Below, piece by piece: positions 1 to 39,130 of a DNA stretch of 64,000 nt. Position numbers and translations under genes: made by a program. The notes under the pieces were generated by a model. The model had not been told where the DNA came from. It saw only the letters and a list, made by a program, of their open reading frames with translations, and did not search any database. The DNA lies in NCBI GenBank assembly GCA_001574975.1, contig KQ965769.1, forward strand, positions 203,583-267,582. Reading direction: 5' to 3'. The stretch is from Gonapodya prolifera JEL478. Lineage: Eukaryota; Monoblepharomycota; Monoblepharidomycetes; Monoblepharidales; Gonapodyaceae. Within the stretch, counting starts at the first letter, position 1, and every line of letters begins with the position of its first letter.

Positions 1-471
1 ATCCATGACAGGTTGCGACGACGCGCCGGGAAGAGACGTTTGGGGCGGTGGAGCGGGTACGGGTTGTTGTTGCACGCCTGTGCCTTTTGACGATGCGGGG
101 GATGCAGCAGGTGCGGGTGCGGGTGCGGGTTGTGGGGGAGGTGGAGGGGGCGGTGTGGAAGGTGGCGGGGGACCACGCGCAGGCGGCGGGGGTGGTGGAG
201 GCGGAGGAGGCGGAGAAGGCGGAGGAGGAGGCGGAGGCGGAGGTGGGGGTGGTGCCGGAGTGGGCGAAGACGCGGCGGAGTCCGTCGCGGATGCGGTCGC
301 CTGCACATCTGCCGCGGTCTGCGTGGCACTCCCCGCGTCCGACGTCGCCGCCGCCGCCGGAGAAGACGCAGGCGCGCGGATCGTCAGGGGATCCGGCAGT
401 TGAATGTCCAGTCCCAGAATTCCTCCGTCGNCTCTCCTCTCCGCGCGCCCCCGTTGGTGTCCACCGCCCAT
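1..471 (-). CDS. Proline-rich protein, N-terminal part (runs off left edge)
   Basis: Reading the minus strand from an ATG at 471-469 gives about 157 codons open to the window edge. The frame starts MGGGHQRGRAERR, crosses an undetermined base at 431, then reads GILGLDIQLPDPLTIRAP. An Ala/Ser/Thr-rich stretch follows, then two long polyproline runs (about residues 70-112) and a Pro/Ala/Gln segment. Polyproline blocks of this kind are typical of FH1 or WASP-type actin regulators, but no diagnostic domain is inside the window, so the family is not assigned. The plus strand is also open here and would encode Gly/Arg low complexity; I prefer the minus frame because its start is followed by non-repetitive sequence before the proline runs. 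The GC-rich 472-700 stretch would be its promoter. Confidence 0.5.
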   Translation of the reverse strand, partial: MGGGHQRGRAERRXDGGILGLDIQLPDPLTIRAPASSPAAAATSDAGSATQTAADVQATASATDSAASSPTPAPPPPPPPPPPPPSPPPPPPPPPPPARGPPPPSTPPPPPPPQPAPAPAPAASPASSKGTGVQQQPVPAPPPQTSLPGASSQPVMD

Positions 472-779: not shown

Positions 780-3700
780 GGTTCGGCTTTGCAAAAGGTC
801 CCTCCACCCGATATTTTCTGCCTTCTTTCCCTGATTCGCGAGTCGCCCGGCCGACACACGAGCAACGCTTGCGATGTATTTTAGACGACTTTGAGGTCTC
901 TCCTGCTCAATAATTGAGTGGGGCCGTAGTTGTCAGCTTTCGACCGCGCCCCCTTGAACGGCCCGTGTGTCAACTATATTGGCACCCACAGCGCACATCA
1001 CCTAGAATCAGAGTTATTGGAACATTACTTGAAAGCCACACAGTGACTTCATACCTAGTTACTTTTATGAGCCTACCATGGAGAGACATGACTTGGTATG
1101 TCTTCCTGATAGAGTTCAAGTGTTGTCCCTTGTTTGCACATTGTGTGTGTTTCTGTCCAAAGTCATACTGGACACACTTTTAACTCTAACTAGGCCAAGA
1201 AGGACCTCACTACTGTCTACTCTTTTGGGAACTCCTAAGAACCTGTGAGACCACCATTGTCATTTTCCATTCATCAATTGTCAGTGGCCCAGCTGACACA
1301 TCACCAATGCTTGTGATGCATTTTGGACACCTTTAAGCCCTCCCACCCAGCCATTGAGTGGAACCAAGGTTTTCAATTTTGAAATCATCAGCTGGCCAAA
1401 AATGTTAGCTGTTTTTGCATCCATGGTACAGTTCAAAAGAAACCAAGCCAAATTTGTGAAAAGGATGTTGTTGGTGGTATCACTTTATTTTGCAAGCAGA
1501 TGATTGCATTTTTTCCTCTATGTGGTTAGAACTGCAATCTTCATGAATTGTGTTGAAAAACCTTTCAGTATCACTTCTCACAAGCATGGAGAGCATAATG
1601 GAGGTATCCTCACACTGTGAATATGTTTCCATTCATTTTCAATCATGTACTCACTGGTATTCTTTGTGAGTTGTGTTGCCAAACCATGATATCACCCATG
1701 GCCACAGTTGTTTGAACTTTATTGGAAAGCCACACAGTGCCTTCACACCCAGTAACTTTTATGAATTTACCATGGAAGACCAATGATTTGTTTCCTTTCC
1801 TGCTAAAGTTCAAGGCTTGTTACTAACTTGGCAAGAGTCAGAAGTGGGTCCAGAACAACCTTCACTGCAAAATAACTACACAAAATAATTGAGGCATATC
1901 ATCTCTGTTTACTCTTTAGCCAATCACCAAAAAGCTTGTCCCTGTTGTCATGCATTGCCTTTCTTCTTTGTTTTTTATCTTTTAAGCATGTCTCATTAAC
2001 TGATGCTGAGGAGGACTGTTTGAAAAAAAAAATCAAGTCAAACCTGAAATGCAGCAGTGCTTAATCACTTCTCAACCTGTTTTCCTTGGTCACCACAGGT
2101 TTTGTGTGTTTTCAGCTGAAGTTATACTGCACCCAACTCTTACAAAACCAGGTAATCTCATTAGCTCTGCCCACTCTTTTGTCAATTATCAAGAAGCTAT
2201 GGGACCTCTGGTGTCACCCACCATCCTTGTTTTTGTTTGTCTGGCTGACATGTGAGCAACTCTTGTGATACATTTTGGAAAACATCAAGCCCTTGCTCAC
2301 AGTAACTCTGTGTGATCAAAGTTGTCATTCTCAGGTTTGGTATCAGCACTGTTGGCACCCACATTCCCACATTACATTTCAAAGGGAATCAAGCCAAGTT
2401 TGTGAAGTGAATGGTGGTTGTGCTATCTTTTTCTTTTGCAAGCAGATAGTTGCAGGAGTTACCTTCACAGGGTTAGAACTGGATCTGCTTGAGTCATGGC
2501 AAGAAAGCCTTCATCATCATTTCTCACAATCATGGAGATCATTGCAGAGCTGTTGTGGCATTGGAAAAGTGTTTACATCAATTGTCAACCATGTAACTTT
2601 CATTCATTCCTGTTGAGTTATTCATCACAAGAATCAGTCTATTGCAGGGTTAATTGAATGTCACTCAGCAAAGTCAAACCCAAAGACTTTTTGAATCTGC
2701 AGTGAAAGGACATGACTTGGTTTCTCCTTGTGCTAAAGTTCAAGGCAGATATATTGATGCTTGTAGATAAGATTATTGTATGTTTCCAGTCAATGCAATA
2801 CTGCACCAACTCTTACCAAGCTAAGAAACCACATCTACCTGTTGTCTTGGGAGGTACACAAAAAACCTGTCTGAGATACACCAAAAACCATTTTGGACAA
2901 TTTAGAGTTCTTCCCACAGAAATTGTATGAGGATAAAGTTGACATTGTAGGAATTTGCTGGAAGCTTTGTAGGGACCCAGACTTTGACAGTACAGTTCAA
3001 AGGTAATGAAGCAAGACATATGCAGTGAGTTGTGTTTGCACTATTTACTTATTTTGCAAGCAGATGTTGGTAGCAGCTTCCTCCTTGGAGGTTTGACCAT
3101 GGGTCACAGCAGTTCACATTTGTCACATTCATACATAGTGCAAAATAGATATTCTAAGTTTGTAAATCAGTTTATATTCCTTGAGAACCATGTGCTCAGA
3201 TCTGTTCCTCATGAGTTGTGCATCACAACCATGACATGATCACCCAAAATCAGACTGCCATGAGCTTTATTTGGAAGCCATACATGGACTTCAAGGCAAT
3301 TACTTTTCTGAATCTGCCATGGAAGGGCATGACTTGGTTTCTCTTCCTCCTAAAGATCAATGACAAGGGAATGTAATTTGCTCATTTTGTGCTTCCAGCC
3401 AAAGTCATACTGCACCCAAATCTTACCAAGCAGAATTACATCTACCTCTTCTCTTGACAATGCACCAAGATCATTCATTCATCCCATGCATAGCCATAGT
3501 TGCCAACAATGAGGAAAAGGCATCTCTACTCTTTCTGAAAACACTTGATACTTCCTTCCTCCCCAAAATACAACAAGTCAGCCAACAAGACTCCTCTCTG
3601 TTTAGAGTCCACATTCAATGCACTCTCACAGCATGAGCCCCAAATTCCAGATGACATGCACATCCTTAGATATTTTCCTTACAATTACTTTGTTATTACA

Positions 3701-4580
3701 TCACCAACTGATATTACTTGTGCTTTTGAACTTCCAAGCCCATACACAATGTGACCAGACCAACTTACATTTTGGAATCTGCTGTGGAATGAACTGAGTG
3801 TTTGCTTCCTGGCAATGCTTTTCCCAATACCACTTTGTGGCAGAAGTTATTGTATGCATTGTCATGAGCCCATTCAACCAAGTTAATACCAACCAAACTA
3901 AGTCCTCACTTGCCTAATTTTTGTGTACCATATTGGAACCCACAAGGTGCCACCCCCCAATATTTTTCTCCCTTCTTACCCTGATTTGTCAGAGGCCCCA
4001 CTGACAGCAAACAATATTTACTCCCTTATATCCTTGATTTGTCCCAGACCTTGCCAACACACAAACAACAACACTTACAATTTTGAATGACATTGATCTC
4101 CTCTCCCAGTAGTTAGGCAAGGCCATAGTTGACATTACTGTGTTGGTCCTTGCTGGGAGTTTCTTTTGCAACCACTACTTGCTCAGTGGGAATCAAGTCA
4201 ACTTTATGAAGTAAATAGTATTTGCAGTATCTCTTTATTTTGCAAGCAGGTGGTTACAGGAGTTTCCTCCTGGCATTGAGGGGTTTTGCTAAGTTTGCTT
4301 GAATCAGGTCCATAATCAATCATGCTAATGCAAAGTACACAAGTCACAAGAGGGGAACATGTATCCATTAATGAAGCTTGTCTCTCAGACCAAATCTCTT
4401 TACTTACACTTCAGAATGATTGCTCTAACAAACCCTCAAAGATGCCAGATGGAGCAGCAATGCAATAATGACTATGTATAAACTCTCTTATTTCAATATG
4501 GTGTACCAATAGTTCATGTCACAAGTACTCATGAATATTGCATTTACTGTTCCAGCTTTGGGACATCACCTCTGATCTGC
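780..4580. repeat. Degenerate tandem repeat array, almost entirely CpG-free
   Basis: Diverged copies of the same landmarks recur in order. A block beginning gaaagccacacagtg occurs near 1031 and 1722, with a looser copy near 3277. The block catgacttggt with a following aaagttcaagg-like tail occurs near 1088, 2711 and 3328, with a variant near 1785. The block ttttgcaagcag occurs near 1490, 2434, 3052 and 4239. Spacings of about 620, 690, 940 and 1190 bp suggest a unit of roughly 0.6-0.95 kb with indels. The unit at 780-990 keeps CpGs; from 994 to 4579 there is no CG dinucleotide. Short ORFs here are not conserved between copies and are not called as genes. Confidence 0.75.
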
Positions 4581-4581
4581 G

Positions 4582-4915
4582 TAGTCTTTTGGTAATGACT
4601 AAGAAGCTGGTCACGGACCACTGTTGTCATTAACCATTCATTTTTGCTTTCTGAGAACATTGCAACTGCTTTAGTGACAGCAATCATTTCAAAACCACAC
4701 TTGAAATGAAATTTTGACCATTTTATTTACCACCCTCCTAACGCCTCAGCAGGTACTATACCTGAGTTTCAGATAAATACATCTGACATCTTGTGTCTTG
4801 AGGGTACTCTCGCCCTTTTGATACGATAGTTTTGGATGGGATTGTATGTCAGCAGAAGGAAGGGAATGTGTTGTGGTTTTGCTTATCCCTTCACTATCCG
4901 CCCATCTGCACCACG
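4582..4915. other. Intergenic, no gene seen
   Basis: This is the transition from the CpG-free array to normal-composition DNA and the upstream region of the 4916 gene. CpGs reappear from 4580 onward. I see no clear TATA box and no separate gene. Confidence 0.5.
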
Positions 4916-5971
4916 ATGCTGCGAATCGCGCGAGCCATTTCTGCACCATCCGCTCCCCTCGCTAGCTCCGTCTCCTGCCGGTCCCATCGTGGATTTTCGT
5001 TACTTTCCACTCGCTCGTTTGCATCGACGTCTTCACCTCGGTCGCTCACCACCCCACGTCCACTGGCGACCGCATCAAGCGTAAATCGACACCAAAGCGT
5101 TTCTTTGGCCCGATTCCTCTCTATTTCGGCGCCTTCCCTTGTACAATCCACCCGTCCAACCTCGCAATCCGACACGTTGGTCACATTCCCGTGGCGTCTC
5201 TCATCCGAGTCCCCTCTCCCCTCGCCCGAATCAAACTTCATTCGATCCGCCTACCTCTCTTTCATCGGAGCTCGCCGCGCGAAGAAACTGCTCAAACACC
5301 CAGTCTACCCAGTTCCTTCGGCCATCCTCCGCGACGCAGCGTCCTCCATCCACACTTACATCTACCTGTTGGACGAACTCGCTCGTGGGAAACGGCAACC
5401 ACCGGACGTTGCCGCTGACTTGCTCCGAGTGGCCTCCCCAATGCTCGTGGATCGTTGCCTCGCAGCGGCGGAACACAGCAAGAAGATTGGCATCCATGTC
5501 GAGTTTGAGTACCCCGCAGAAGCACCTGGCGGTATAGCTTTACACCGAAATACTCCCTGGCGGTTTGTCATTGGTCCACAGACTGCTGACGGTTCCCCCC
5601 TCCCTGGATATCGTGCTGAAGACTGGTTCGGCCACGCCACTTTCATGTTCCCCGACCCCTCCCCATCTTCCTTATCGCCTTCTTCTGAGTCAAGCGAGAC
5701 GAAATCAGACCCCGTGTCTGCCCACTCACGTGACCGCTCCCTCATTGCGGCAGCAGTGGAAGCTGGCTCGAAGATTCAAGTTTCCCTGAAGGTCACTGGA
5801 TGGCCCGTCACCATGCGCGTAAAAGAGGGCAACAATGTGATGTTGGAGGACAAAAAGACAGAGTTTGTTGTTGTCATGGAGTCACCTGTGATTCGTCCTG
5901 GAGACGAGGTGGTGGCGGTCGCAAATTTTGAATGGAAGGTGATGTCATGGGATGGAGTGGGTGGAGTCTGA
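4916..5971 (+). CDS. Mitochondrial-targeted protein, family not assigned
   Basis: A single-exon frame of 351 codons from ATG 4916 begins MLRIARAISAPSAPLASS and stays rich in Ser, Arg and Ala with almost no acidic residues for about 60 residues. This is a classic mitochondrial presequence. The folded part starts around residue 105 (FIRSAYLSFIGARRAKKLLK). It carries a helical region and then a beta-rich C-terminal half with two stretches, VSLKVTGWPVTMRV and TEFVVVMESPVIRPG, separated by a Ser-rich insert. The size and layout loosely recall Tim44-like/MRPL45-type inner-membrane proteins, but I see no motif that proves this. The frame is open upstream to 4832; I choose 4916 because the targeting signal begins there. 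Confidence 0.65.
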   Translation: MLRIARAISAPSAPLASSVSCRSHRGFSLLSTRSFASTSSPRSLTTPRPLATASSVNRHQSVSLARFLSISAPSLVQSTRPTSQSDTLVTFPWRLSSESPLPSPESNFIRSAYLSFIGARRAKKLLKHPVYPVPSAILRDAASSIHTYIYLLDELARGKRQPPDVAADLLRVASPMLVDRCLAAAEHSKKIGIHVEFEYPAEAPGGIALHRNTPWRFVIGPQTADGSPLPGYRAEDWFGHATFMFPDPSPSSLSPSSESSETKSDPVSAHSRDRSLIAAAVEAGSKIQVSLKVTGWPVTMRVKEGNNVMLEDKKTEFVVVMESPVIRPGDEVVAVANFEWKVMSWDGVGGV

Positions 5972-28920: not shown

Positions 28921-31900
28921 ATGAATGCCAACGATGGGAGTCACGTGTCAGCCGCACGCCATTGGTGCATGCTTGGTGCGCTGTGCGTGTGCGTGCTGGG
29001 GACGTACTACTGGTGAGCGCACTCAAAGCGGCGACGGTCTGGAGTGGCACAGTCTGACGTTGCTCTGGACTCGAATTTGTGCGGTCACTCTCTTGGCAAA
29101 GCTACGACATGGTGAGTGCGCTAAGCAAACTCAGCTCGATCGATGTCACCTGACACTCCACCGGCAGCCCGCAGCACTCAACGTCAATCTGCGAGAACAT
29201 CTGGGTGCAGACTACGACGACTGGCAGTACAAACTCAACATTCTCTGTGCGTAGCTCTTGCCTGTTCCCTCCCTTATCACCAAAAACTGAACCCGGCCAT
29301 GGTAACCTTTGCGTAACCCTCCGACCTTCCACAGACACCGCCTACTCCCTCCCCAACACGCTCCTCCCCCTCCTAGGCGGCCTGCTCTCCGACCGCCTCG
29401 GCCCCGCACGCACACTCTCCCTCTTCTCCCTCCTCGTCCTCACCGGCCAAACCCTGTTCTTCCTCGGCGTCCACGCGCGCACATTCCCACTCATGCTCGC
29501 TGGTCGCGTGCTCTTCGGCGTGGGCTCCGAAACCGTCGACGTCGCACAAGTGAGCCTCGCCACCGAATGGTTCTCTCCTCCGTCCCCTTCCCCTTCCTCC
29601 GACTCCCCTCTCACACCCCGCCCCGCATCCCTCCCGGGCCTCGCCCTCGCCGTCGGGCTCAACATCGCCTTTGTCCGCACAGCGACGGCGCTCAACGACA
29701 TCCTCTCGCCCTGGATTGCCCAGACCGCCGGCGTGACCATTGCCCCACTCGCGGGGGTCGCGTGCTGCACGGCAAGTATCGTCGCGGTGGGGTTCGTCAG
29801 TTGGATGGACAGAGATGACGGCCGGCGCGCGGCGGGTGTGCCTGTGCGTGATACAGCGAGTGGGGGGAAGACGCGGAGGAGGAGGAGCTGTACGAGCGCC
29901 TTTGATGATGGCGCCAGCACCAGAGGAGGTGATGGTGGAGACGGACGTCACCCGCCTCACGGCCCGCGCCTCATTCTCACCTCGGACGTGACCAAATTCC
30001 TCTCCGATACCACAAGCAACGCCGACGCCGACGCTGACGCTGACGCTGACGCTGACGCTGACACGGCCGTGCTGGACAGGTCCGACGCAACCGCCGTGTA
30101 CCGATCCCCTCCTCACCTCCACTCCGAGACCACACCACTTCTTGTCGTCCGTGCTGGGTCCCCCGGCTACACCGAGGACGCGGAGGGGACGGAGGGAGGA
30201 GATAGGACGGAGGGCAGCTTGGTCTCAGTGGAAGATTCGGAGGAGAGCTTCGACGAGGAAGACGAAGGCGTACGGTGGGGTGAGGTTGCTGGGTTGGGTG
30301 GGAGGTTTTGGGGCATGGTGAGTTGCTTGGGTGTGTCTGGGTGGTGGGGTGGTCGAGGCGCGAGGAGGGCGGAAGACGGGGGGGNGGGAAGAAGGAAAAA
30401 GAGGGTGGTTGGGTGTGATGCTAATGGACGTGGAAGAGCGACATGACGTCCAACCACCTTGTCCGCCTCCGACACCCTGAAATGGATCTCTTTTACGCTG
30501 CGCTCACGATGCATGGGATACTAAAACCTTGCTCCCATTCCGTCCCTTCCTTCCCTCCACCCTCCCCCATCCTCCTCACCACTTCTCTCCCTTCCCCCGA
30601 CTCGCTCTCCACCAGTGCCTCGTCACCATCTGCGCCTACGGCTGCGTGAACCCCTTCTTCAACATCTCGTCCGACTTCTTCCAGGACGGCTGGTGGCCGG
30701 GCGATGCCCGGAGGGCGGGGGCCGGTTCGTTTGATGGGTCCTTGGCTCCTGTAACGTCACACACCCAAACAATCTGTCGAATCTTCCCCCAACCCAACTC
30801 TCCCCTTCTCCCCCACACGAACCAGCAATGGCCCTCCCCGACGTCCTCTCCGCCCTGCTCTCACCCCCCCTTGGCCTCCTCCTGGACCGGCGCCCCGCGT
30901 CTCGCTTTCCCGTACTCTTCCTTTCTCTCCTGTCCATCTTGTCCGCGCACGTGCTCTTTGGATGGACCCGCCTGTCACCCTTCGCGAGTATGGCGGTCTT
31001 GGGCGTCGGGTACACGGGGGCAGCGAGTGTGGTGTGGAGCGCCGTGCCGGGGTTGGTAAACGGCGGGGGGGTGGCCACAGGGTACGTACTTCCAAGGCCA
31101 GGTTCTGTGGTGGCTACTCACTAACCTATATTCACGCAGGTTCGGCCTCCTCACTGTGTGTCTCAATGGGTCTCTCTCGCTTCTCCCGATGATCGTTGGG
31201 CACGTACGTGCCGCGAATCCGTCATCGTGGCGGCCCGTCGAGGGGCTGTTCTGTGCTCTGGCTACCGTTGGAGCTCTTGCGGTGATTGGGGTGTGGTGGG
31301 CCGACGGGGTGGCAGAGGGCAAGGATGGACAGGAGGACGTGGAGGAGGAGTGGGAAGGGTTGTTGGAACATGTAGACCTTCACGATGAGGCTGATGTGGA
31401 GAGAGGCGCAGTGCGACATAGGGCAGCTGTGTATGTCCCCCACCGGCCACGTCGCTTGTCGGAGGAAAGTTGGGACCACATACGGGCGCATCCTGTGGAT
31501 GTGCGCAGGATCGCAATTTCGTTGCCGGGTGTGGGACAGGCAGTCGTGGCGCCTGAGACATGGTGAGTGGTGACTCAGGTGAAGGTCGGGTTGGTGTGGT
31601 CTGTGTGCTGATCATTTTGGACTTGTGATTTGTTCAGGATCCACCACCATCGGCACCACCGCCGGCACCGCTCGCACAACCCCTCGTCCTCACACGCACA
31701 ATCTATTCACGGTGTCGCTCTAGTGGGTGAGCCTCGTCGCGCAAGGCGTAAGTCGTGGGCGGGAGCGTTCATGGCCGTTGTAGGTCTCGGAGAGGAGACG
31801 ACTGGTGGGCACGTCGTTCAGAGGAGAGCGAGGTCGCGGTCACCCGAGAGGAGGGTAAGGTCGGCGGATGGGAGACGGGTGGGTGGGGGGAGCGCGGTGA

Positions 31901-31941: not shown

Positions 31942-32350
31942 TGGAGGAAGCTGGGCTTCCCCGAACCACTTGGCATTCACAAACACGAACACGACTACTT
32001 TGCAAACATACTGGCACGATGAAGCAAGGTTCTTCGACAACGGTCTCGGCTGTTCATCTACACTTCCTCGAAACGAACTCACCAACATTTGTAGTACACA
32101 CCACACAAGCTAATTCTAATTGTAGAAAGGCATTCAGAAAGTCGTGGATTAATGTAGTATGTATAATAGAATGATGGTCGCCGTCAAATATCGGTTGAGA
32201 AGCGATGACGGAAGGTATTCGTTGCGTTCAAGTGTTGACAGGTAGTTGCTTTGTGCCAAAAACACCGTCCGTGTGGCCGTGATTAGTTTTCCAAGTACTC
32301 TACTCAAATAAAAAAAGGGCGAATAACAATGGGAAAAAGTTCAAAATATC
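31942..32350. other. Intergenic, no gene seen
   Basis: The 3' flank of the transporter and the downstream side of the minus-strand tRNA. The sequence after 32300 is A-rich (aaaaaaaggg), which on the minus strand gives a short T run downstream of the tRNA, suitable for RNA polymerase III termination. Confidence 0.5.
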
Positions 32351-32431
32351 GTCGACTGCAGGATTCGAACCTACGCGGGGAGACCCCAATTGATTTCTAG
32401 TCAATCTCCTTAACCACTCGGACAAGTCGAC
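32351..32431 (-). tRNA. tRNA-Ser (anticodon AGA)
   Basis: The minus strand gives 81 nt with a perfect 7-bp acceptor stem (GTCGACT with AGTCGAC), the A-box region TGTCCGAGTGGTTAAGG and the B-box GGTTCGAATCC. The anticodon stem ATTGA/TCAAT closes the loop CTAGAAA, so positions 34-36 are AGA. A long variable arm (GGGGTCTCCCC) confirms a class II serine tRNA. No intron is present. Confidence 0.95.
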
Positions 32432-32524: not shown

Positions 32525-32710
32525 CATGGTCAGGGAAGGGTTAGAATTATAGTATCGCCTATAAAATCCTGCAGTGCATCACCATATTATGCAAAATTAG
32601 CAGAAAACAATGGCATGTAACATGGTCAGGGAAGGGTTAGAAATTTAGAATTATAGTGTAGCCTATAAAATCCTGCAGTGCATCACCATATTATGCAAAA
32701 TTATGCCTGA
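32525..32710. repeat. Two 96-bp direct repeats
   Basis: The block starting catggtcagggaaggg occurs at 32525 and 32621, followed in both by cctataaaatcctgcag and caccatattatgcaaaatta. Copy 1 reads tatcgcct where copy 2 reads tgtagcct, so a CpG in the first copy is absent from the second. These lie at the border of the CpG-poor island. Confidence 0.85.
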
Positions 32711-32935
32711 TGCAACCACTGCAATTCAAAACCATTTTCTGATGCAAAATTCTCCAGTGCATGTACCAGTTTCATTGTTAAAAGCATCTTTGAATGCCTC
32801 AGTGCCTGTTTCCTGGTTTTGATGATATGTTTGTGCACAGTGGATGTCCCTCTTTTATGATAGTACTCTTGGTCCTCACCAATCTCAAATGATACCTTTG
32901 TCCCTGCAGTTGCATTAAGCTTTGATACAAGTCCT

Positions 32936-33830
32936 GTCACACTGACATCCACTAACATGGAGTATATAGTGTAGTATGAGTGTTGGGTATTAGCTGCTGT
33001 GCCACTACTGTGGCCGCGGGTTTAGATGTGCACACCTGCAGGACGTGCCCTAAGTTTGGCATCACGTTCCTGCAGGTGAGTTCTATGCACATTACGTCTT
33101 GCTATGTACATTTGATCATATATACACGTTCCTGCAGTTTACAGGCTTGTGCAGCTCACCTAGGTTGTGTAGCAAGTCCCGCAATATCCTGTACTCCCTT
33201 TTCCTGTTGCTTGGGATGTGGTAGAACTGACACTCTGTCAGCCTCTTGGGATATGTCTGAAGGGTAAGTAGCAGTGTGGGACTGGAGAGAGAGTGGATGG
33301 TGATACAAGAGAGAGGCAGTGATGTGATGCATTGGTCTGGATGAATAAGGGCTGTGCACCTGGATAAATGCTACCTGAATGCTATATTATTGCCCCAACC
33401 TACCCAAAGGCTTTACAATTGGACTAACCCATTGCAAGTGTTAGTTCCACTACAGGGAGGCAATTGGTACCTCCCACCATTCAGAGGACAAATGGCAACT
33501 ACCTTGTTCAAACTGGGTGCCATTTGCACAAGTCCTTCCAGTAGATTGTTTGCTTTGAATAGATTCCCTGGCAGACTTATGCATTGCCTCTAAGCCTTAG
33601 TGCTACACAACCTAGGTGAGCTGCACAAGCCTGTAATCTGCAGGAACGAGTTTATATCATTAAAAGTACATAATGAGTTGGTTTATACATGGAACTCACC
33701 TGCAGGAACGCGATGCCAAACTTAGGGTGCATCCTGCAGGTGCACACATCTAATTTCGTGACCACAGTAGTGGCATGGCACCTAACACCTTGCATTATAT
33801 ATACCATGTCAATGGATGTCACCTGAAGCT
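32936..33830. mobile_element. Fold-back / MITE-like element with ~230-bp inverted repeats
   Basis: The left arm (about 32936-33185) and the reverse complement of the right arm (about 33600-33830) align along most of their length. Shared words include gccactactgtgg, cctaagtttggcatc, gttcctgcaggtgag, acaggcttgtgcag and ctcacctaggttgtgtagca. The central ~410 bp (33190-33600) is unpaired and has no coding frame I trust. Both arms repeat cctgcag words. CpGs are almost confined to the arms, several as CG in one arm and CA or TG in the other. Target-site duplications are not clear. The insertion splits the decayed minus-strand frames at 32701-32958 and 34024-34763. Confidence 0.72.
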
Positions 33831-34023
33831 ATGGTGACACTTAGCATCATTTGCTGTTATTTAAGTGTGGAGGACCTCAAGATGAGGGAATTTCAGGTAA
33901 CCATATACTTGTGGAGATGTCAGTTCTCATCCAAAAGCAGGATTATGGCTCAACCCAAGAACAGGGAACAACAGTTCACCAAAAATTCTCACATTTGGGA
34001 ACACAAGTGACCACTGTGCTATA

Positions 34024-34763
34024 TCAAGATCTACATATGCACCTCTTTCCACAACGTTGAAGCCCCCAAGTTTGGTCCTGAAGTGATGTTATCCTGTGTC
34101 TCATTGCACCCAGAACAAACTGAATCAGCTTATTCATTGACCCAATATCCACCTTCTTTAAGTTTTTTTCCAATGTTCTCACATTGGGACACATAAGTAT
34201 TGCCTCTGACAAAACTCTTGCCAATTTTGATGTTGCTGGATGCAGAAAGTCATTGTTCATGCACAGGTCAAGTGCTTGAAGTGCACAACAGAATCTGTTG
34301 AGCATTCCCCCAACACCTCATAGAGTTTGGCTACAGTTGCTGCTCCTTTGCATCTGAAGCTTGCAAATTGATTAAGTCTTACAAATGTAGTCACCATCTT
34401 GACAGCCATCAACAGGGTTGTAGAACCAGCATCTGTGTCACTATCAACTGCAATGTGCACTTCCACCTCACCAAACATAAGATCCACCAGCTAGTTACTT
34501 TTGTGCAGTTGCTCAATTACATTGGAAGACTCCACTGCCTTTCTCCAGATCAAGGCTTCCATCCCACTCATGGTGGCAATTGCAACACCTTGTTTAGTGA
34601 CAAGGAAATGTTGATGACAGCAATTGTTCCCACAGTCAATCTGTCTTTTGCCACAATCATTTTGACAGCTCTTTTGATCTGGATCAACCCACAAGAGCAA
34701 TTCACAGTCTGTGGGTACTCCTATCATAGGAGTACTGTCACATGTGACATCTGAGCTTACCAC
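34024..34763 (-). pseudogene. Decayed unrecognised gene in the CpG-poor island
   Basis: On the minus strand, a frame from 34763 runs to a single in-frame TAG (34491-34493) and resumes at once as VDLMFGEVEVHIAVDSD through 34300. There it shifts by one frame and continues ALQALDLCMNNDFLHPAT, KLARVLSEAILMCPNVRT and LEKNLKKVDIGSMNKLIQF to about 34080. Residue composition is protein-like, with regular leucine-rich helices. A further minus frame at 32958-32701 (TGLVSKLNATAGTKVSFEIG) may be another exon beyond the fold-back element. I do not recognise the family. Confidence 0.5.
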
Positions 34764-35639
34764 TCACAGTTGGGTGTGGGGGGCTCAGGGGTGGCATGGT
34801 CAGAAGGGAAAGGGAGCCCGTGTTAGACTAGTTAGGTTTACTTCTACAAGCACCATGTTCAGGTTGGTGTTATTAATGCTTTGCTGGTGTATTGGTGGAC
34901 TCATTATATTGTGTTCTGCATTCTTGGCTATCTTCACAGTGTGGGGACTCCCTGTTGTCACAAGTACTTTGCACTCAATAGTGACTGTACGTCTGGCACA
35001 GCCAGGGATGGCACAGTCAGTGGCTTCACAAATGGAGCAGAAACATAAGGGAGGGCACAGGAGAATGTCATTGGAGGGATGAGATGGAACATCTGGTTAG
35101 GAATTAACTTGGGGGAAGTCCATGTCCTAATTGGTCTCCTGATGTTGCTTTGGGGTTGGTATGGTTATGGCCAAGAATGGCCACAGTAATTAAATGTGTT
35201 GTTACTGGCTCACCCCACTTGGTACTTCATGGCCATCCACATGTAGCTGGTAGGGTAGTGGTTACACTGTTGTTTCAACAACATCAGCTCAATTGATCCA
35301 AGAGCTACCAGTGGGTGGTTGCAGTTCTGACATGGTAACACCAATCACAATGCTCCAGTACAAACAGTTCTCACCTGGAAAATACTCATATTGGATATCT
35401 TTTCAGCTTGCTGGCTTTGCAATTGAATTGGTGATCCTCATGGCTGGATTGATTGGCCATTTGACATGCATTCTCACTATCAGAGTCACCAAGAGTATAA
35501 ACACTATTCTTCTCTCCTCTGACCTTCCTGGAAGTCTTTGGCAACTGGACATTTGCACTGCTTTTCAGCTTTCCAGATTGAACAGTGTCACCCAGCTTCT
35601 CAAGTGGCCAATTTTTCTCCCGTTGGGTCTGGAGATATT
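34764..35639. other. CpG-poor stretch, no gene assigned
   Basis: Open frames at 35293-35811 (+) contain hydrophobic stretches but no motif. They may be the 5' part of the GT32 remnant that follows. Only about three CpGs occur from 34056 to 35580. Confidence 0.4.
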
Positions 35640-36565
35640 CTGCTCACCTGAGAACATAATGCACTTTGCTGAAGACAAATGCTATGATCACACGCTTGTT
35701 ATTCTCCCAGAGTCAGATGACATTGCCTGGGGATCGAACACTACAAGCCCTCATCAACATGTTGCCTCTCCTATCCTGGCTGTTATACATACAACTCAGT
35801 CTCTTGATTGAGCTATTATTCAGAATTTGGGCTATGTACTTGACTGGGCTGATTGACACCCTCACCATAGATATATTGCTTGGTCAGACACTTCCTTGCA
35901 TGCATTTATTTGTATCTGTGTTCCTTCCATCCTTCCATTTTATGACGCTGCACTTATTAATATCATGCAGTACAAGCTGGGACAATATCTTCTTCTCCTT
36001 GTTTTTGGTGGTGTTTGGGTTGACTGTGATGTGGAACCACGTTGTGCCATTGAGGATTGGTTAAACGGTGTGCAGAGACTCTATGGTGGAACAAAACTGA
36101 GACAAACAACATCAGGGTCATTGTTGGGATTGAGAACGACTCTTTTGGGTAGAAGAAATGGCAGAAGATGTATCCTTGGGAGGTTGGAGTTGCACAATGG
36201 CTTCCTCACCTCATCATCCCATCTTTGACGGCATTGTAGACACAGTTCTTGCAAACATAGGTGGAGTCTTGTGGCAAATGAAAGCGAAGAGGAACATAAT
36301 GGCCTCTGTCATCAAATCTAGTGTCGTCCATGTTGCGGGGCCAGGTCCATGGACAGACACTATTTGGGGTTATGTGGATTGCTTTCTATCCAATATATTG
36401 CCCATGGAAGCTTTCACAAACCTACTGCAGGGGATCTCAGTGGAAGATGCTTTCGTGCTGCCAATCAAGGTGTTCTTGCCTGGAGTTGGTCATATGGGCA
36501 CTGGAGGCAGGACGCATCCTAAAGCAAGAGTTTACCATGCCTTTCAAGGGAGCTGGAAGAACTGA
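35640..36565 (+). pseudogene. GT32 (OCH1-like) glycosyltransferase pseudogene
   Basis: The core of the family is visible in one frame at about 35960-36070: YLLLLVFGGVWVDCDVEPR, where the DxD-type sugar-nucleotide motif is DCD, followed by CAIEDWLNGVQ. The next segment (GIENDSFG, then KKWQKMYPWEVGVAQW) lies in another frame and has a TAG at 36152-36154 where a Trp is expected. A third frame gives ASSPHHPIFDGIVD, VHVAGPGPWTDTIW, LPGVGHMGTG and VYHAFQGSWK, all typical of the C-terminal half of fungal alpha-1,6-mannosyltransferases in the Golgi. At least two frameshifts and one stop make it non-functional. It sits on the edge of the CpG-poor island. Confidence 0.75.
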
Positions 36566-36788
36566 GATTGTTGGAGAAGGTGGTAGATTGAACATTACAG
36601 GTCAAAAACACTATTACAAACAAAACTCAATTTTCATTGCTACTATTGCAAATGCAATCCCTTGTCAGCTCATGCATCATCTGCATCTGATTTAAGTCAG
36701 TGACCTGGAAGTGGATCGGCTAGAGACAGGTCCACCACCCTTGCAGCTAGCTCCTCCATGGCTTCGGTCTCAACTGTTGTCCCTGACT

Positions 36789-39130
36789 TCATGTCTGCTC
36801 CAGAGTCGTAACGTGGGGTGCGCTTGACTTGGGTCTATCAGGAAGGAGACGTGCTTGGCATTTTGGGAGCTCTGCCGTCATGTGAATGACCTGTGGATTT
36901 GGCAAGTCTGAAGTTGATGGCACGTATGGAATGTTGTAGTGGAATGCAACGAGCTTAGTGACATCCTCAAGAGAAGTAGACAATGCTCTAAACTCCTTGG
37001 GGGAGTCTGTCACAGCTGTCGCGGGGTATCGTGGCAACATTGAAAGATGGATAAGATAAACCATAGAATAAAAATTACTCACCAAACCTTGTTGCCGATT
37101 TGGAAGTATCTCTGATGGGCAGCTGTAAGATTGGGCAACACTCGCCTGCACTGAAGAGGAATGCATTGGCGGGAAGCTCATTGTTTCGGGCTGGTCACCA
37201 GGTTTGGATCCCGAAGGTGTCGAAGCATCCGATTTCGTGCCCTTCTGTTTCCTCTCAGTATTGAAGTTGCAGTGAAAATCTAATATGGATGGGTGAAGTG
37301 GGCTCAAAAGGTGTTTGAAGAGTCAAAGCTAAGTTGAGCATACCTTGATTTTCTGGATTTGGCTCTAAAGCGATGCAGTCACGCAATTAATGGCATCAAT
37401 TACGATTTGGTACATTTCAAAGGCACCTACCCTGAAACGATCTGCCACAAACTTCAACACCTCTGTTGTGGAGAGGCCCTGGTGGGTTTTTCCCCGATTG
37501 AGCCCCACCAAGATTCTGTATGCTTGGGAAGGTCTTGTTCGGGTAATTTGAGAAAGTCCACGTGCACAGCTGTGGGTGACTGCAGTGGTGTCAGTGAGCC
37601 CAATCTTCTTGGGAACGTGATTTCTGGTAATGCAGCCTGTGTGATCCAAGGATGCTGGAGAGCTTCCTTTGCAGACAGCCGGAGCTCGGGATTTGGTGCA
37701 AGTAGCTTCTTGATAAAGTCAACGGTGAGAGAGTAGCGTGCCCATGGAGTTGAAGGAACTGCGGTAACACGCTCAAAGTGAGACGAGTTAAGCAGAAACC
37801 GTAGACTCGAGAGCTCACATTCAAGCTGTCCAGATATTATGTTTCGAGTCGCGGTAGAGGTGTCATTGTCCCAGAATGGATGCTGACCGGAAAGTCTTCA
37901 TGAAATAAATGGACGGCAGAGGAAGATGAAGTCAAATCTGAATGCTCTACGACTGAGGACTCACAAAAGGTAGATCATAACGTCGGTACTCCACAAATCG
38001 ACTTTCGCTGTGTACTGGTAGCCATGGTAGATATCGGGCGCCTAAGAAGAGGCGACGTCAGAACAAGCATTGAGCAAAGTTAAGCGTCTTATCCCCACTC
38101 ACCATGAATGCCATTGTCCCACACTGCGTCATCATTGCTTTCTTCTGCTGCGCGGCCACTTGAGAGAGACCAAAATCGGCGACTCTAATGTTCCGTTGTA
38201 GCACGAGGTCAGCTTTCCGTGTTGTTCTGGATAGAACGTCCAGAATAGTGGATGCGATCACTTGAACAGTATGCTCTTTGAGTGCTCCAAGCCAAAGAAC
38301 ATAGTCTGTGAGCTAGATCAACGAGGGACGGTCCCTTAGCCCTCAAGTCTTTCGTTTTGCCGAATGTGCGCAGGTCCTCACCTCCCCCCCAGCACAGCTG
38401 ATTTCAAGTTGAACGCAGTGTTCGATCAGAAAACGTCTACCGTATGATGCAAGGTGCTTCATCCACTACTCCATCTGCAGAATGAAATGCGTTTATGTTT
38501 CAAACTGCGGAAAGGTGATCGGAAGTCAGCAAGTCGTAAAACTATCTCCACTACTCATCAAATGCAGAAGCTTACTCGGTCAATATTGTTCAAAATATTA
38601 GGGTGGTGCACGTTCCATAGAATCGCGAACTCTGCGCACGAGAAAAGTGAGCCACCACTTCGGTTCAATGAAGACACCGCTTTAGATCTCACCGCGAAGG
38701 AGCATTTGAATGTCATCAAGGTCCTACAGAAAATCAAATATCCATTAAATACTATGTCATGAAACGTTTGATCTCGCAGATCAACAAACCCTGAATCGTG
38801 ACTTATCCAAGAACTTGAGCGCAGACGGTTCGTCGGTTTTCTGGACCTTCACCAAGTAAACCTTATGAGTACGGAGATGACAGTCACTTAGAGCATAGTT
38901 AGGAGCCTTCCGTGTCAGGTGCACGGACCTGTCCGAAAGATCCCCTAATACATACAGGAACGACGTCCCAGAGATTAGCAATCGACGTGAATGAGAACGG
39001 CCAAAACTCTTTTCAAACCCTCCTCAAAACTCACCACCCTAGTAACTTCTTAATCTTGAAAAGCTCTGAAAGATCCACAATATCGCACAGCTCGTCTTCT
39101 CTCCCTAGTCGACGCGAATGATGTCACCCC
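36789..39130 (-). pseudogene. CaMK-like protein kinase lacking the HRD catalytic loop, probably degenerate
   Basis: Minus-strand pieces follow kinase order: DIVDLSELFKIKKLLG and a Gly-rich loop GSFGQV near 39120-38925; VYLVKVQKT and the Lys of SALKFLDKSRF; FAILWNVHHPNIL; RFLIEHCVQLEISCAGGE; then IASTILDVLSRTTRKAD. That last piece runs directly into LVLQRNIRVADFGLS. About 14 residues that should contain HRDLKPEN are missing, although DFG, an APD (APE) segment, DLWSTDVMIYLL and the final PELRLSAKEALQHPWI are present. The Gly-loop and Lys frames also do not join in phase. The C-terminal tail to about 36789 is Ser/Pro-rich. Minor exon limits are uncertain. It is a pseudokinase or a decayed gene. 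Confidence 0.55.

Follow-up and report, generated by a model that had tools for sequence, protein, structure and literature searches.

A CpG-free tandem array in the flagellated fungus Gonapodya prolifera, probably the scar of CpG methylation and deamination

Introduction

Why would 3.6 kb of fungal DNA hold not a single CpG? The question is raised by a locus of Gonapodya prolifera JEL478, a zoosporic fungus whose genome assembly comprises 47.6 Mb in 207 contigs. We analysed the locus within a 64-kb stretch of contig C39, called the window here, with position 1 as its first letter. A first-pass annotation of this DNA had drawn attention to the tract and proposed a repeat-directed, CpG-specific mutation or methylation process. 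In profile searches the genome gave 72 matches to Fungal_trans and a match to IFT57 over the cut-off, and one of its kinases had yeast PHO85 as its closest solved structure.

Results

Positions 994-4579 (3,586 bp, GC 0.40) contained no CpG, exactly as the first-pass annotation had stated; the bounding CpGs lay at 992-993 and 4580. Base composition predicts 142.5 CpGs for this tract, giving a Poisson P(0) of ~1e-62, and the minimum count in 1,000 mononucleotide shuffles was 109, which bears out the claim that chance is unable to explain the zero at about 40% GC. An assembly gap or masking was rejected as the cause, there being no N within the tract. TG and CA, in which the tract had been called rich, together numbered 677, which is 249 more than the 428 expected. 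The observed/expected ratios (O/E) were 1.55 for TpG, 1.61 for CpA and 0.54 for TpA, with the twelve other dinucleotides present at 0.86-1.16.

These values bear on classical RIP, which in Neurospora prefers CpA and needs RID. A mutated tandem duplication studied in Neurospora in 1989 was reportedly degenerated by C-to-T changes, and the present locus is likewise a tandem duplication with C-to-T changes, which here, unlike there, affected CpG only. RIP would raise TpA/ApT and lower (CpA+TpG)/(ApC+GpT), whereas the tract had a TpA/ApT of 0.63 against 0.60 in 5001-32000 plus 39001-64000 and a (CpA+TpG)/(ApC+GpT) of 1.56 against 1.09 in the same DNA. CpA was enriched rather than consumed, and TpA was low. 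The dinucleotide indices therefore exclude a CpA-preferring process as the one that erased the CpGs, to which we assign next to no probability, and the distinction from Neurospora RIP drawn in the first pass was upheld.

The features of the locus are listed below.

1-471, minus strand: left neighbour, a proline-rich open frame with its first in-frame ATG near 469-471 (putative gene)
792-993, plus strand: outermost partial repeat copy with 17 CpGs retained (alignment, CpG count)
994-4579, no strand: CpG-free tract, bulk of the degenerate tandem array (CpG count and composition)
1009-1702, plus strand: array unit 1, limits approximate (repeat spacings)
1703-2672, plus strand: array unit 2, limits approximate (repeat spacings)
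2673-3289, plus strand: array unit 3, limits approximate (repeat spacings)
3290-4562, plus strand: array unit 4, the longest, limits approximate (repeat spacings)
4580-4809, no strand: soft right edge with 3 CpGs and O/E 0.35, of which 4582-4641 is still repeat-like (composition and alignment)
4916-5971, plus strand: right neighbour, a 351-aa open frame from ATG (putative gene)

On the left side, CpG O/E was 1.55 in 480-791 and 1.14 in 792-993 and then zero from 994, an abrupt edge. The right edge was softer, with 0.35 in 4580-4809, 0.68 in 4810-4915 and 1.02 in 4916-5968. The description of both sides as CpG-rich thus fitted the left side well and the right side only further out. GC was 0.55-0.60 in the flanks.

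The tract is a degenerate tandem array. Local alignments among its pieces were 69-83% identical, three families of repeats over 40 nt, with four copies each, had spacings of 609-1,186 bp, and about four units with lengths of ~617-1,273 bp could be placed within 1009-4562; Tandem Repeats Finder reported no array at 994-4579. The left end of the array, 792-993, is not part of the CpG-free tract; it can be aligned with inner pieces (at 82.6% over 792-836) and keeps its 17 CpGs, and 4582-4641 on the right also resembles the repeat in alignment. The CpG-free zone therefore ends inside repeat sequence and not at the end of the repeat. The coincidence with a repeat array noted earlier was correct insofar as an array is present, but the array is degenerate and its left edge copy has kept CpGs. 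Flanking the array are two divergently oriented open frames, both of them predicted genes, one starting near 471 on the minus strand and the other at 4916 on the plus strand; the right one had no Pfam match and a protein search returned only itself. DNA searches of the genome with 780-4640 and 780-1000, which diverged copies can escape, matched no second array copy beyond the locus itself, and Rfam found nothing but one tRNA in the 64-kb window.

The edge copy was compared with four inner stretches. The 22 CpG cells in these alignments corresponded to 8 TG, 6 CA, 8 other and 0 CG, and at the non-CpG sites C>T was seen at 4 of 56 and G>A at 11 of 52. Loss of CpG that yields TpG and CpA, a feature of repeat islands decayed through 5mC, was accordingly found in 14 of the 22 cells, and the CpG-specific C-to-T change claimed for the tract was supported. 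A gain of CpGs by the edge copy is possible in principle, but the inner pieces compared against each other give the same picture: nine alignments with 1,115 aligned positions held 80 double differences, among which 10 were CA/TG and 1 was the mirror AC/GT. Reciprocal CA/TG pairs are the signature that shared CpGs would leave when decayed on opposite strands. The same data speak to the view that the tract is foreign or shaped by its composition (for example horizontally acquired and CpG-avoiding) and never had CpGs. Its GC, lower than that of the flanks, would suit such an origin. However, the outer copy of the same repeat holds CpGs, most of its aligned CpG cells read TG or CA within the tract, and the inner copies carry the reciprocals. 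On the outer copy and the reciprocals we rejected a foreign origin, which we consider very improbable.

We further surveyed 264 kb for comparable DNA, a sample that was not random and consisted of C39 from 1 to 170 kb, the 64-kb window and 30 kb around two methyltransferase genes. Of its 528 windows of 500 bp, 27 fell below an O/E of 0.45 and only 2 between 0.5 and 0.6, with the main mode at ~1.0, showing that the sample is two-state in CpG O/E. Two-state segmentation of the sampled contigs gave islands with O/E of 0.020 (the tract with its right edge), 0.042, 0.14 and 0.15. Apart from the tract, which measured alike gives 3,588, the longest run free of CpG in the 264 kb was 1,161, and one extra locus had a run of 1,272. 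Nine further loci, partly overlapping, were scanned around LTR-like copies and related repeats; ten stretches from at least seven of them had O/E of 0.09-0.37, and one of the nine had no island. The tract is the extreme of a series and was chosen for being extreme. That repeats are affected while genes and their near flanks are spared, with gene-bearing DNA CpG-normal, was found in the 264 kb plus the extra loci, as judged from 500-bp windows and segmentation without repeat or gene annotation.

A second island of the window carries the LTR-like repeat.

32558-36801, no strand: second CpG-poor island, O/E 0.14, 29 CpGs, LTR-like repeat inside (segmentation)
32935-33174, plus strand: 240-bp LTR-like dispersed repeat with 6 CpGs kept, found at 97-99% identity in at least 39 other places
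33601-33821, minus strand: diverged inverted copy of the 240-bp repeat (78%) with 4 CpGs kept (alignment)

This island begins ~130 bp past a tRNA-Ser gene (32350-32431, minus strand) and carries the two LTR-like copies in inverted orientation. Over 36001-38500 CpG O/E rises gradually, with 0.31, 0.36, 0.60, 0.73 and 0.86 per 500 bp, unlike the sharp edge at 993; the boundaries of islands differ in kind. The number of other places is a lower bound, as 40 of 425 candidates were scored, and several of the listed copies lie no more than 6 kb from the start of a contig. CpG content was compared in 14 copies, with 4 partial matches left out. Ten young copies, at least 97.5% alike, had 5-8 CpGs each, and four diverged copies had 3, 4, 6 and 8, two of them below any of the ten young copies and two not. 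Elsewhere in the window, at 30019-30062, an ACGCTG hexanucleotide is repeated in tandem 7.3 times within an open frame that by eye resembles a membrane transporter.

CpG loss was also followed in retroelement copies. Among 50 reverse-transcriptase matches, the 12 best-scoring loci had CpG O/E of 0.54-1.04; none was CpG-free and most were partly depleted, in a set that is best preserved, hence biased to young copies, and in which 3 of the 12 contain unread letters. In five pairs with at least 93% identity, CpG transitions made up 125 of 192, 47 of 82, 141 of 220, 16 of 28 and 64 of 129 differences. Per site, the excess of CpG transitions over other transitions was 12.6-29-fold in the five pairs, and it ranged from 6.3- to 29-fold when every one of the ten pairs with at least 88% identity was counted. 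When changes were polarised with an outgroup, one copy had more CpG losses relative to other changes in 6 of 6 pairs (p 6e-9 to 0.028, uncorrected), three of which share L035 and are not independent; counts came from trimmed copies, the ends of L044, L041 and L046 not being homologous. CpG losses to other changes were 103:75 in L039 versus 12:57 in L035, and 84:36 in L040 versus 17:33 in L045. Sister copies alike in their other divergence thus differed 2.8-8.6-fold in CpG losses, so that loss depends on the state of a copy and not on age alone. Such dependence is as expected if copies were methylated or unmethylated, or if a mutator struck some copies. L035 (match at C114:9543-10022) and L045 (match at C120:4915-5289) have CpG O/E of ~1.0, with sister copies at 0.57-0.84, and these two apparently stand outside the CpG-losing state.

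The idea of a repeat-directed process was weakened by these comparisons, in that the boundary of the CpG-free zone falls within repeat sequence, the best-scoring 12 reverse-transcriptase loci keep a CpG O/E of 0.54-1.04 and the ten young LTR-like copies keep 5-8 CpGs each. Both kinds of copies came close to being the CpG-normal repeats that would speak against it, and the sister copies suggest two copy states.

The losses had a sequence context. In five pairs without shared copies, CpGs were lost at 164 of 456 TCG, 86 of 396 CCG, 40 of 381 GCG and 46 of 399 ACG sites. The odds ratio (OR) of TCG versus the rest was 2.9-6.1 in each of the five, and 3.2 and 2.1 (p 0.026) in two pairs reusing L035; stratified by pair, codon phase and strand, it was 3.6 for the five. 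C-to-T changes in these transposable elements therefore have the TpCpG preference known as a Pucciniomycotina-type feature. Composition agreed with a TCG bias in decayed retroelements, partly the same copies, and in loci around LTR-like copies; in strongly depleted windows it agreed for ACG, and windows with O/E of 0.45-0.8 were without bias. Of the 7 pairs, 5 had TG and CA outcomes in nearly equal numbers and two were skewed to CA (22:36 and 3:11), and no clustering of the outcomes in strand runs was found in 7 of 7 pairs (p 0.11-0.82). A dedicated APOBEC-like cytidine deaminase acting on the tract DNA would fit losses that prefer TpC. Against it, the changes are restricted to CpG and without strand runs, and we regard such an enzyme as scarcely plausible; APOBEC_N had no match here, but none in any control genome either, so that this search was uninformative.

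An active RIP-like process would recognise repeats at some life stage and mutate their CpGs, TpCpG first, in bursts, with the tandem units of the array as a repeated target until they became too diverged. The TpCpG bias in 7 of 7 copy pairs, with its stratified OR over five of them, argues for such a process, as do the unequal CpG losses of L039 and L035 or of L040 and L045 despite similar other changes, a zero that exceeds what decay predicts, and the TpCpG RIP-like pattern described for Pucciniomycotina in PMC5381629. It is opposed by the lack of strand runs in the TG/CA outcomes, by multi-copy retroelements that persist at O/E near 1.0 (L035 and L045), by the reverse-transcriptase loci, none of the 12 best-scoring being CpG-free, and by an exon-wise search, able to miss a divergent gene, that placed PF00145 in only two genes, read as DNMT1 and DNMT2, without a RID-like third. 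On balance we consider it unlikely.

The methyltransferase genes were sought by an exon-wise profile search of the contigs, as the first pass had suggested looking for homologues. PF00145 matched three places in two genes, on C14 and C12. The C14 gene has, in successive open frames, an RFD over the Pfam cut-off, two BAH below the cut-off and an MTase over the cut-off; splicing of one intron yields the motifs PCQGF and ENV, and its BAH/MTase piece matched 23 solved sequences, all of them named DNMT1. The C14 gene is thus predicted to encode DNMT1, and with it a CpG maintenance methyltransferase. The C12 gene, which we take from its motifs to be DNMT2, is likely to be so. No third PF00145 gene, and hence no RID/Masc1 gene, was found in this search, which a divergent gene could escape. 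SRA matched on four contigs and Pre-SET over the cut-off on one. RdRP-domain matches were present on four contigs (C1, C13, C80 and C111), so that an RNA-silencing pathway may exist. Open frames at ~7834-10000 of L007 (plus strand), divergent from the DNMT2-like gene, presumably carry SNF2-like helicase motifs.

Discussion

With good though not full confidence, we read the tract as an old silenced repeat island whose CpGs were methylated and then deaminated to TG and CA. The array would have been recognised as silent chromatin and held in CpG-methylated heterochromatin with H3K9-type marking, DNMT1 assisted by SRA would maintain its CpG methylation, and methylated cytosines would deaminate to thymine, be poorly repaired and end as TpG or CpA. 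The gene-proximal edges (~100-520 bp) would remain unmethylated, like vertebrate CpG islands. In support of this reading we observed CpG-specific transitions, copy-state dependence, edges that keep CpGs and the presence of the enzyme genes. This reading does not call for a dedicated premeiotic mutator, although one could still be accommodated in view of the TpCpG preference. In the chytrid Spizellomyces, 5mC is described as confined to transposons (PMC12695648). A review, PMC13297926, states on the other side that in early-diverging fungi 6mA has taken the place of nearly all 5mC, and PMC12695648 reports no general link across its species between 5mC level and genome-wide CpG content.

Two observations on the losses themselves also stand against passive decay. 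CpG loss is not clock-like, as the sister copies indicate, and this would also fit occasional hits by a mutator. Moreover, the TpCpG preference is the reverse of the context preference of spontaneous methyl-CpG decay in mammals. The zero itself can be set against a prediction. By our own arithmetic, dividing half of the TG+CA count by the rate ratio gives the approximate number of CpGs at equilibrium; with the values from the five closest pairs this predicts ~10-27 CpGs in the tract, and a ratio of 20 predicts ~14-17, against 0 observed, and zero should need a ratio near 100 or more. The retroelement ratios are likely underestimates of the true ratio because copies spend time unmethylated, and the unpredicted zero is therefore a pointer to an extra process and not proof of one.

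The tract is a CpG-specific mutation scar of a known kind, here in a little-studied lineage and unusually complete. In the rust Austropuccinia psidii, PMC8063080 describes age-related CpG loss in transposable elements, in which these two indices likewise gave no sign of classical RIP, and ascribes it to 5mC deamination; the present case differs from that description in being a flagellated fungus with a locus-specific tandem array, zero CpG over 3.6 kb and copy-state dependence among sister elements. Retroelement CpG transitions with TpCpG preference are described for Microbotryum and other Pucciniomycotina in PMC5381629, whereas here the preference is graded (TCG > CCG > ACG, GCG) and the lineage distant. 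Fungi with only the Masc2 class of Dnmt1 (PMC4352252) resemble Gonapodya in the CpG C-to-T signature and in combining a single DNMT1-type gene with no RID found; the 10 genomes of that survey are described as belonging to Ascomycota or Basidiomycota, against a zoosporic fungus here. CpG hypermutation has also been described in Rhizoctonia (PMC4014442).

Vertebrate CpG islands are CpG-normal stretches within a methylated genome. Our locus shares with them the edges between CpG-normal gene-proximal DNA and CpG-poor DNA; in contrast to vertebrate genomes, most of the sampled DNA here is CpG-normal and islands alone are depleted. No paper with CpG loss in chytrid repeats as its subject was found by title and start of abstract in searches of open-access literature on chytrid and early-diverging fungi. 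CpG-directed loss in fungal repeats is already known, and the TpCpG bias and the exact zero may surprise a specialist. What is new and partly unexplained is the TpCpG bias in a zoosporic fungus together with a zero beyond the prediction from retroelement rates.

We entertain, tentatively and as unlikely, that zoosporic fungi carry a RIP-like, TpCpG-preferring repeat mutator run by DNMT1 and SRA without RID, which switches on copy by copy and is able to reach zero CpG. If true, such genome defence, or its independent invention, would extend outside Dikarya. In the array, edge and inner copies of one repeat lie side by side, and the direction of mutation and a sharp boundary can be read directly. 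The tract appears to preserve CpG methylation of a flagellated fungus as a fossil that can still be read, and the copy-by-copy, TpCpG-biased losses offer a way to test whether, outside Ascomycota, CpG mutation of the RIP-like kind amounts to passive decay of methylated DNA or to active defence.
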